Assembly: GCA_945889445.1 (NCBI GenBank)
Contig: CAMDBX010000029.1
Span: forward strand, 1-41,898
Length of the DNA: 41,898 nucleotides
Reading direction: 5' to 3'
Origin: Rhizobium sp. Q54
GTDB lineage: Bacteria; Pseudomonadota; Alphaproteobacteria; Rhizobiales; Aestuariivirgaceae
Part shown: piece after piece, positions 21,915 to 24,094 of the stretch
Layout: each line of letters opens with the position of its first letter
Numbering within the stretch: position 1 is the first letter of the stretch
Position numbers and translations under genes: made by a program
The notes under the pieces: model-generated
Database searches by the model: none
Told to the model about the DNA's origin: nothing
What the model saw: the letters and a program-made list of their open reading frames with translations, nothing else

Positions 21915-22376
21915 ATGGCCCTGCGCGACGAAATTATGGCGGCAGTCAAGGAAGCAATGAAGTCGGGCGACAAGAAGCGTCTGGGCACGCTGCGCCTGAT
22001 GCAGGCCGCCATCAAGGACAAGGACATCAACTCCCGCACCGATGGCCATGATTCGGCGCTCACCCCCGACTCAGGCATTTCAGAGCTCTTCGCCAAGATG
22101 GTGAAGCAGCGCCAGGACTCGGTCGCTGCCTACGAGCAGGGCAACCGCCCGGAACTGGCGCAGGCGGAACGTGACGAGATCACCGTCATCCAGTCCTTCA
22201 TGCCCAAGCAGATGTCCGACGAGGAGGCCAAGGCCGCCGTGGCGGGCGTCATCGCTGCCGTCGGTGCCACCTCGGTCAAGGACATGGGCAAGGTCATGGC
22301 CGAGCTCAAGGCCAAGTTTGCCGGCCAGATGGACATGGGCAAGGCCGGCGGCATCGTGAAAGCGCTGCTGGGCTAG
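21915..22376 (+). CDS. GatB/YqeY domain protein
   Basis: This 153-residue protein is a stand-alone version of the C-terminal tRNA-interacting domain of GatB: 'ALRDEIMAAVKEAMKSGDKKRLGTLRLMQAAIKDKDIN' then 'KMVKQRQDSVAAYEQGNRPELAQAERDEITVIQSFMPKQM' and 'DMGKVMAELKAKFAGQMDMGKAGGIVKALLG'. The family is all-helical and cytoplasmic, presumed to act in tRNA or amidotransferase metabolism, with no firm role. GAGGAAG precedes the ATG. It is convergent with the AAA fusion gene; the two stop codons overlap in the tetranucleotide CTAG. In many alphaproteobacteria dnaG follows yqeY directly; here it is 7.4 kb away. Confidence 0.92.
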   Translation: MALRDEIMAAVKEAMKSGDKKRLGTLRLMQAAIKDKDINSRTDGHDSALTPDSGISELFAKMVKQRQDSVAAYEQGNRPELAQAERDEITVIQSFMPKQMSDEEAKAAVAGVIAAVGATSVKDMGKVMAELKAKFAGQMDMGKAGGIVKALLG

Positions 22377-24094
22377 GGAACGGCTGCTCCGAGCAGGCGG
22401 GCGTTCAGCTTGCCGCCTGAGAATAGCATGTCGTCAATGGCATGCTGGACGTCAGTCGGAGTGATGGAGCCGTCGCTCCGGTTTAGCGTGGCCTGCGCAA
22501 TGCGCCGCATCAGTTCCTTGATGAAGGCGGCACTCATCCCTCCTGTCCTTGCAGCGGCTTCAGCAACCACCGCATTGCTGAGCTCCAGATTGCCACCATA
22601 AAGCCGGACGAGCCTTTGCCTGCAGTCCATGTCTGGAAGGGGGACTTCGATTGCCTGATCGACCCGTCCCGGGCGTCCGCCAAGTGCCTCTTCCAGTTGC
22701 TCGGGCCGGTTGGTGGTAAGCACGAAGATGATGTCGGCGTCACCCTTCAGCCCGTCCATTTCGTTTAGCAACTCGTTGAGCATTGACTCTTCGCACGGTC
22801 CTTTCATGTCTTCACGCTGGCGAGCGATCAGGTCAACATCTTCAATTACCAGCATGGAAGGCTGTAGCAGGCGCGCAAGGAGTACATACTGATCGAGCTT
22901 TGCCACCTGCTGCGCAGTGATCAGCAGCGTCGTGTGGTGGGGCAGATTGTGCGCGAGGTAGCGGATAGTGTGAGTCTTTCCGGTGCCGGGCGGCCCGTAG
23001 AGCAGGATGCCCTTGCGCGTCGGTTGTCCGAGCGCCCGCAGCTTCTCGCGGCTTTCCACGAAGTCGATGATGTTGCGATCAAGCAACGAGAGCGTCTCCT
23101 GCGGCGAGATCACGTCATCACGTGACACAGGTGGCAGGCGATGCACCATCATGCCGCCCGACTGCCCGCGATACTTGCCGTTCGCTTCGAAGGACAAGAC
23201 CTTGCCCCTATAGCTGCGTGCCACTTCCACCTCATTTTCCAGAAACTGGAAACAGCGTGCAGTCAGTTGCTGGCCTTGATCGCCCATGGGAGTCGCGATC
23301 TCGATGCGGATCTGCAGTTCTGTGTTGAACTCGCGGTGTTCCGACAGCACCACGGCATATGGCATGTCGCCCTCGCGCAATAGCCACAGCCCGTTTCTGA
23401 GGCATTTCACGGGCGCAGCGCCGCCGACGTCGAGATCCTCGTATTCTGCCTGTGCGATGATGCAGGGTGAGCGGCCTTGCGATATGAACTTTGCGAATGT
23501 GAGGGTCTCGTAGCGATATTCCTCATGCACGCCGTAGAGAACATTGCCCTCCGCTGAAAAAACCGCACTCGCTGCCGCCTGAACGTCGGCGCGCATATGC
23601 CCGGGAAAGTTGCGCGCAGTAGAGGCGATCATGTACTTCGGAATGCCGGCAAAATGCCATGCTAGGGCCTCGAAGGCGTGTCCGAAATTGGGGCGGGCTC
23701 CGTCTTCGCTCTGGAACTGCGCAAGTCCTGCGGCGAGACAATTGTGGCAGATCGCCGCCTTGCGCTGACTGTAGCGCCGCTGCCCGGCGTCCATGGTATT
23801 CTCGCAAAAGGCGCAGCGCTGAAGTTCATCATTGTCACCCAATATGCGAATCTGGAGTTTATGCGGTCCCGTAACCTCCACGGCTGCAGCCAGTAGCGCC
23901 TCCGCCACGCGGGTAGGATAGGGGCCAATCTTGGCGAACCCATCGCTGTGCACCTTGCGTGTCATGGCCTCCGCTTCCTCCGGCTGCAAGGCGAAGACAT
24001 TGCGGAGCATGCCCACGACCACGTCCCAAGGTGTGTCAGCATCGTTGCTGAGGAGGAGGGTGCGATTGTCGGCGTTTGAAGTGGGCGCCAGCAT
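22373..24094 (-). CDS. ClpS domain / ClpX-type zinc finger / AAA ATPase fusion protein
   Basis: 573 residues in four parts. Residues about 11-71 are a ClpS domain, the adaptor that recognises N-degrons: 'LLLSNDADTP' aligns with the E. coli NDDYTP pocket, N17 and D18 are kept and H49 in 'KVHSDG' matches H66, while the gatekeeper Met is W23 and the second Asp is A19. Residues 94-119 are a C4 zinc finger, C-x2-C-x18-C-x2-C, the exact ClpX spacing. Residues about 125-335 are unrecognised, probably beta-rich. The rest is a classical AAA module: Walker A 367-374 (GPPGTGKT), Walker B with E418, sensor 1 'LTTNRPEQLEEAL', 'GRPGRVD' arginine finger and a C-terminal helical lid. There is no protease motif or membrane segment and no ClpP-binding IGF/L loop. 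Likely an N-degron-guided unfoldase; partners unknown. Confidence 0.88.
   Translation of the reverse strand: MLAPTSNADNRTLLLSNDADTPWDVVVGMLRNVFALQPEEAEAMTRKVHSDGFAKIGPYPTRVAEALLAAAVEVTGPHKLQIRILGDNDELQRCAFCENTMDAGQRRYSQRKAAICHNCLAAGLAQFQSEDGARPNFGHAFEALAWHFAGIPKYMIASTARNFPGHMRADVQAAASAVFSAEGNVLYGVHEEYRYETLTFAKFISQGRSPCIIAQAEYEDLDVGGAAPVKCLRNGLWLLREGDMPYAVVLSEHREFNTELQIRIEIATPMGDQGQQLTARCFQFLENEVEVARSYRGKVLSFEANGKYRGQSGGMMVHRLPPVSRDDVISPQETLSLLDRNIIDFVESREKLRALGQPTRKGILLYGPPGTGKTHTIRYLAHNLPHHTTLLITAQQVAKLDQYVLLARLLQPSMLVIEDVDLIARQREDMKGPCEESMLNELLNEMDGLKGDADIIFVLTTNRPEQLEEALGGRPGRVDQAIEVPLPDMDCRQRLVRLYGGNLELSNAVVAEAAARTGGMSAAFIKELMRRIAQATLNRSDGSITPTDVQHAIDDMLFSGGKLNARLLGAAVP

Follow-up and report, generated by a model that had tools for sequence, protein, structure and literature searches.

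An altered ClpS domain joined to an AAA motor with a shortened pore-loop-1 segment in a patchily distributed protein family with an optional ClpX-type finger

ClpS folds (PF02617) are known as adaptors that dock on Clp motors, ClpS itself serving as the N-degron adaptor of ClpAP, while the zinc-binding domain of ClpX (PF06689) is a C4 finger with a spacing of 18. A different kind of motor is found in FtsH, CDC48 and PAN, where the PF00004 module carries Walker A, sensor 1 and two arginines. Bcs1, which has its own N-terminal domains, acts at the membrane. According to excerpted text of PMC11143374, it is without a conserved pore-loop and moves the folded Rieske protein in a concerted manner, without threading; the excerpted part of PMC12219900 adds that the Bcs1 loop at the pore-loop-1 position still touches the folded client. 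Our search of the open-access literature found no paper on an architecture of ClpS, finger and AAA motor, and the nearest report, as far as its excerpt goes, describes unrelated vWA proteins into which L12/ClpS domains are inserted (PMC7159879).

Here we analyzed a gene in a stretch of 41,898 nucleotides from Rhizobium sp. Q54 (the window) whose product joins a ClpS domain, a ClpX-type finger and a classical AAA module in a single chain, an observation of the earlier note that we can confirm. In contrast to the ClpS adaptor, its ClpS domain is covalently attached to an unrelated motor and both working surfaces are changed, which makes the fused protein a natural experiment on the capabilities of the ClpS fold. 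The finger shares the C4 pattern and the spacing of 18 with ClpX, but it follows ClpS, precedes a classical AAA module rather than a ClpX motor, and is optional in the family. The motor has the PF00004 module, Walker A, sensor 1 and the two arginines in common with FtsH, CDC48 and PAN, from which it differs by the deletion of pore loop 1, by a Walker B motif ending in ED and by the absence of a protease motif. With Bcs1 it shares the lack of a conserved pore-loop (PMC11143374, excerpt), and we regard Bcs1 as a mechanistic precedent, claiming no kinship; unlike Bcs1, which sits at the membrane, the window protein contains no transmembrane stretch (top 19-residue hydropathy 1.21). With moderate confidence we propose that the protein remodels clients that are folded or being assembled, driven by ATP and with the ClpS and finger modules as recruitment domains, and that it is not a partner of ClpP. 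It would thus represent an accessory soluble AAA ATPase, probably acting as a ring, of an alphaproteobacterial family from the rhizobial order.

Module layout of the window protein

The modules and motifs are collected in Table 1. Three architectures occur in the family, namely ClpS, finger, middle domain and AAA; ClpS, middle domain and AAA; and middle domain with AAA, and the constant core consists of the middle domain and AAA. No Pfam family scored above its cut-off in the middle domain when the window protein and its relatives were scanned. Of the NCBIfam models listed for the motor, all scored far below their cut-offs, and the PADLOC hits to IetA, TRIP13 and mad8 were rejected as generic AAA matches. 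A whole-chain AlphaFold model, built from two sequences, reached a mean pLDDT of 36.5 and was useless outside the ClpS part (ten-residue means of 36–43 in the finger region). Median omega values, calculated without column L112, were 0.30 for ClpS, 0.49 for the finger, 0.19 for the middle domain and 0.15 for AAA.

Table 1. Coordinates of the gene, its modules and its motifs in the window
Feature	Position	Strand	Remarks
Gene for the 573-aa ClpS / C4-finger / middle-domain / AAA protein	22373..24094	(-)	stop codon within span
ClpS-fold domain, residues 11-84	23843..24064	(-)	
ClpX-type C4 finger (putative zinc finger), C94-C119	23738..23815	(-)	C-x2-C-x18-C-x2-C; E 3.3e-9 when the family profile is compared with the ClpX finger
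Middle domain, residues about 137-320	23135..23686	(-)	conserved; common to all three architectures; no Pfam match
Classical AAA module, residues 321-556	22427..23134	(-)	PF00004 E 1.8e-21
Walker A GPPGTGKT, residues 367-374	22973..22996	(-)	
Site of the 9-residue deletion taking out pore loop 1, around residues 396-402	22889..22909	(-)	alignment with 9 FtsH; Walker spacing
Walker B LVIEDVD, residues 415-421	22832..22852	(-)	order ED, not DE
Arginine fingers R474 and R477 (RPGR)	22664..22675	(-)	

Two absences claimed by the earlier note also held. A protease domain is missing from the window protein, which has no HExxH motif, and no ClpP-docking loop is visible, as there is neither an IGF-type triplet in the motor nor an HbYX tail; the only [ILVMF]G[FLM] triplet lies at residue 27, inside the ClpS part. 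Since no docking loop was seen, clients are presumably not handed over to ClpP.

Rebuilt surfaces of the ClpS domain

The ClpS part of the window protein scored 36.0 bits against PF02617 (curated cut-off 23) and four relatives reached 52–58 bits, supporting the earlier proposal that these residues form a real ClpS domain. For the comparison of individual positions we used the pocket and ClpA-contact residues named in the excerpted text of PMC12493166, a reference set of 25 standalone ClpS sequences from the same order, and a family alignment of 51 rows, which stand for 50 genes as rows L090 and L111 are one gene. N17, D18 and H49 are all present in the window protein, and to this extent the pocket is kept as had been claimed; as a family trait it is not, for the triad occurs in one of the 51 rows and in one of 121 ClpS-bearing members, the window protein being the sole bearer, versus 25/25 standalone ClpS. 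The standalone set is likewise invariant at N17 (35/51 family rows), at D18 (50/51 rows and 110/121 members) and for the second Asp at position 19 (24/51 rows; A19 in the window). His at position 49 was found in 1/51 rows and 1/121 members versus 25/25 standalone sequences, and the Met gatekeeper at position 23 in none of the 51 rows or 121 members versus 24/25. Position 23, a Trp in the window, accommodates at least ten different residues across the family, so the combination of W23 and A19 rather reflects drift than the special altered pocket that had been suggested. Since H49 is kept in the window protein alone, it does not count as evidence for a conserved N-degron reader. These counts bear on a reading in which the protein is an N-degron-guided unfoldase or disaggregase, its ClpS part binding bulky N-terminal residues and its motor threading the bound protein: the genuine ClpS fold and the triad of the window protein speak for it, the single His49 and the missing gatekeeper against it.

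Position 49 is acidic in 92 of the 121 members (E 82, D 10), and the pattern persisted after near-copies had been thinned to 25 clusters at 80% (E 12, D 6, H 1); the 76%-identical relative of the window protein has D at this position. T21 is present in 50/51 rows, and position 16 is His in 104/121 members. Two observations speak for a ClpS domain that is still in use, namely its median omega below 1 and the new conservation of His16 and of the acidic residue 49. Judged by its residues D18, acidic 49 and T21, the pocket could still accept an N-terminal or cationic ligand of some kind. In a further reading, the ClpS domain is a re-specified reader whose rebuilt alpha-amino site (acidic 49, family-specific His16) recognizes another N-terminus, a lysine or another cationic mark on folded clients. 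The frequencies of acidic 49, His16, D18 and T21 together with the ClpS omega of 0.30 are in line with it, but the window protein and its nearest relative carry S16, and positions 23 and 45 vary freely; we regard this reading as rather unlikely.

The ClpA-facing surface is changed as well. Glu at position 62 was found in 2/51 rows versus 25/25 standalone sequences, and the docking Lys at position 67 in none of the 121 members, 105 of which have Leu (51 rows: K 0, L 44; standalone: K 25/25). In terms of the ClpA-contact residues E79, E82 and K84, the window protein has R62, E65 and L67, with E, E and K retained in 2, 15 and 0 of the 51 rows. Helix alpha3, the carrier of these contacts, has turned from charged to hydrophobic at positions 66–67 and looks as if it were packed in cis. 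At the sequence level, the family has thus rebuilt the N-degron triad as well as the ClpA-docking helix, the two surfaces by which a functional ClpS is defined. The ClpA-contact counts also weigh against the idea that the protein regulates the cell's own ClpAP/ClpXP by poaching clients or capping a partner chaperone. That both modules derive from Clp partners, and that the genome of the window additionally encodes a standalone ClpS (127.6 bits) and a separate ClpX-finger protein, would fit such a role, which we nevertheless deem highly improbable.

The finger matches the ClpX type in its C4 spacing and in profile similarity. PF06689 was listed for a single relative (L050), with 22.4 bits and hence below its cut-off of 27. 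Separately, a second protein with a ClpX-type finger above the cut-off was noticed in L184 (G003:C27:1039-1140), in a 383-aa frame and in addition to the principal ClpX match of its genome.

Alternatively, the ClpS fold and the finger could be structural relics or oligomerization pieces without a recognition role, on their way out. With median omega values of 0.30 and 0.49 they evolve faster than the other modules, they were lost several times, and the hydrophobic residues 66–67 of helix alpha3 give the impression of inward packing. However, both omega medians are still below 1, 92 of the 126 copies in one genus still have the finger, and the ClpS fold residues are kept across the 25 clusters, which makes this explanation unlikely. 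In the reading that we prefer, the ClpS fold and the ClpX-type finger would have been adopted from the Clp system for recruitment or docking, as dispensable modules that tune the choice of client or partner.

A classical AAA motor with a shortened pore-loop-1 segment

Walker A, Walker B, sensor 1 and both arginines are retained, so the aligned motor evidently keeps the motifs for ATP hydrolysis; the Walker B motif of the family reads VIEDVD versus IIFIDEID. When eleven family rows were aligned with nine FtsH sequences from related genomes, nine residues were missing at the FtsH pore-loop-1 segment in ten of the rows and six in the eleventh, that of S. garamanticum. The remote relative L097 was among the rows with the shortened segment, and a wider family of AAA proteins with a shortened loop may thus exist. 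The spacing between Walker A and Walker B, measured in the 65 of 67 rows caught by the pattern, agreed with the deletion: it was 39 in 63 rows and 38 and 42 in the other two, versus 47 in all nine FtsH. Taken together, the alignment and the Walker spacing point clearly to the loss of pore loop 1 from the motor.

The shortened pore loop 1 makes a threading unfoldase unlikely, and the unfoldase activity proposed in the earlier note fits poorly with a segment that is 6–9 residues shorter than in FtsH. For the N-degron reading introduced above, the AAA module with its ATPase motifs remains a supporting point. Against it stand the loop shortened across the family, the motor without a ClpP-docking triplet and the chain without HExxH, so that together with the pocket counts we judge this reading decidedly unlikely. 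The shortened loop and the precedent of Bcs1 rather lead us to infer that the motor works on folded or assembling clients. It would most likely push, hold or release such a client in a concerted, Bcs1-like manner instead of threading it, although the short loop of the present motor may still grip the client, given that the Bcs1 loop touches its own. With a classical AAA motor that is intact except for its pore loop, the family is a soluble bacterial candidate for the short list of AAA machines that possibly act on folded proteins.

Distribution, module loss and the nitrogen-fixation setting

A search of 61 genomes, including that of the window, revealed two near relatives with 76% and 54% identity, the former of which matches an Aestuariivirga MAG. 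In a wider search with an 11-row alignment (E 1e-50), the family was detected in 3/385 genomes of the class and 7/398 of the phylum, its own genome counted, and all of these matches fell into the same order save for one remote relative. Within the window's own family, 8/69 genomes were positive, including two remote relatives whose matches cover nothing before model position 196 or 210, and in a Bradyrhizobium-like genus the family occurred in 117/242 genomes. Three remote relatives (L121, L122 and L123, from G1270, G1267 and G414) have the motor and a portion of the middle domain in common with the family but differ in their N-terminus. Residues 200–573 matched 47 of 72,556 plasmid records at E 1e-25, all of them from Rhizobium, Sinorhizobium, Mesorhizobium or Paraburkholderia. 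These rhizobial plasmid proteins share the middle domain and the motor (38–43% identity), lack ClpS and finger, and are annotated merely as ATP-binding protein or AAA family ATPase. In viral contigs we found at least 20 loci with generic AAA matches, among the matches listed at most 39% identical and none extending into the ClpS part; the best 20 of 104 phage records match only from residue 272 on. On the whole, the family is real and patchy in its distribution, and it combines an altered ClpS, fused in the same chain, with an optional ClpX finger and an AAA motor devoid of pore loop 1.

The Bradyrhizobium-like genus contributed 126 copies, of which 92 have the finger, 23 have ClpS without the finger and 11 are short, two of the latter being open frames of just 234 and 313 residues. 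Split or fragment copies of seven genomes (G1032, G1039, G1072, G1103, G1163, G1234 and the second copy of G1248) are excluded from these counts. In four cases the split gene lies in two adjacent pieces (G1032:C1:717970-719690, G1248:C1:8795226-8796940, G1103:C7:121119-122842 and G1234:C89:16944-18658); such copies look as if they were decaying, which fits an accessory role. In a tree of 64 rows (L014, L097 and L117 left out; L022 and L138 cut upstream), the plasmid short forms are set apart by a long branch from the clade with ClpS; L021, L132, L077 and L096 all carry ClpS. This topology is compatible with a gain of ClpS in the one or its loss in the other. Within the ClpS-bearing clade, the finger is missing in L003, L125 and one 12-member clade, while both modules are missing in a five-member clade and in L137, the start of which is broken. 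Since short forms of this clade share their neighbourhood with full forms, these absences are best read as losses, and several such losses would indicate that finger and ClpS are dispensable.

We also scanned for an upstream -24/-12 element matching at 10 or more of 12 positions. In the Bradyrhizobium-like genus, the element preceded, within 500 bases, 14/23 finger-less copies, 1/92 finger-bearing and 0/11 short ones; at 9 or more positions the numbers were 19/23, 2/92 and 1/11. The element-bearing finger-less copies are close relatives and therefore reflect few independent events. In a set of 57 loci, 12 had the element versus 2.1 expected, with no finger-bearing locus among the 12 and a TGT-N10-ACA site upstream of the element in nine of them. 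The bearers in this set include plasmid forms of Mesorhizobium, S. garamanticum (read twice), R. binae, R. bangladeshense and R. leguminosarum.

The gene nifH scored over its cut-off in 20/23 genomes with finger-less ClpS copies versus 146/242 overall (p 0.006, kinship ignored), the exceptions being G1107, G1253 and G1255. It was also present in all 11 genomes with a short copy and in 62/92 finger-bearing ones, and the family as a whole showed a weak link to nifH (82/117 with the family, 64/125 without; p 0.004). In the six genomes compared, finger-less copy and nifH share a contig, at distances of 18–32 kb in four, 261 kb in one and 2.5 Mb round the circle in another. Seventeen other copies, chosen where both places were listed, lie 0.68–3.4 Mb from nifH (median 2.0 Mb), and three ClpS-less short forms of the genus 1.0–2.0 Mb. 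Among the plasmid copies, the short form stands ahead of fixAB-like genes in R. binae and ahead of fixAB-like genes together with nifA in R. bangladeshense and R. leguminosarum, is located between nifK and nifE in P. sprentiae, and lies near fdxB in Mesorhizobium. Within 20 kb of the S. garamanticum gene lie fixLJ and genes for a cbb3 oxidase, but no nif gene. Around five further plasmid copies no nif gene was listed (5 kb on each side for two, 20 kb for three) in gene tables that are incomplete. The Paraburkholderia sprentiae copy (L014 4965-6372) is annotated as two overlapping frames and is probably broken.

The sigma54/NifA-type promoters and the nif/fix neighbours suggest that the symbiotic branch was drawn towards the nitrogen-fixation setting and probably serves a client needed in nitrogen-fixing cells. 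Against this speak the two finger-less copies far from nifH, the short forms of the Bradyrhizobium-like genus, which are distant from nifH in the three measured and have no element at 10 or more positions, and the five plasmid copies with no nif gene in the stretch read. Under the remodeller reading, this branch would have shed the finger or both modules, many members standing behind such promoters and some beside nif/fix genes. A bolder version is speculative: a non-threading AAA class whose rebuilt ClpS pocket (acidic 49, His16, D18) reads a different terminus or cationic mark on folded clients would have been drafted by rhizobia into the NifA regulon and, its reader domains shed, would service the nitrogen-fixation apparatus. 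The promoters and neighbours of this one branch make a role in nitrogen-fixing bacteria directly testable in nodule bacteria.

A conserved operon partner was not found in the Bradyrhizobium-like genus, where the gene occupies several unrelated neighbourhoods. A gene pair that we take to be emrAB-like lies about 110–220 bp ahead of one group and is missing at the same site in others. In one locus (L111 6536-9976, G1104), an EmrB-like transporter and the family member run through a single 1146-aa open frame; the stretch between them resembles an out-of-frame tail, so this is probably a frameshift and not a true fusion. The plasmid short form of two Rhizobium species has TIR-domain and caspase-family genes in its vicinity (L018 1-2238 and L160 14621-16990), which look like a defence or conflict cassette.
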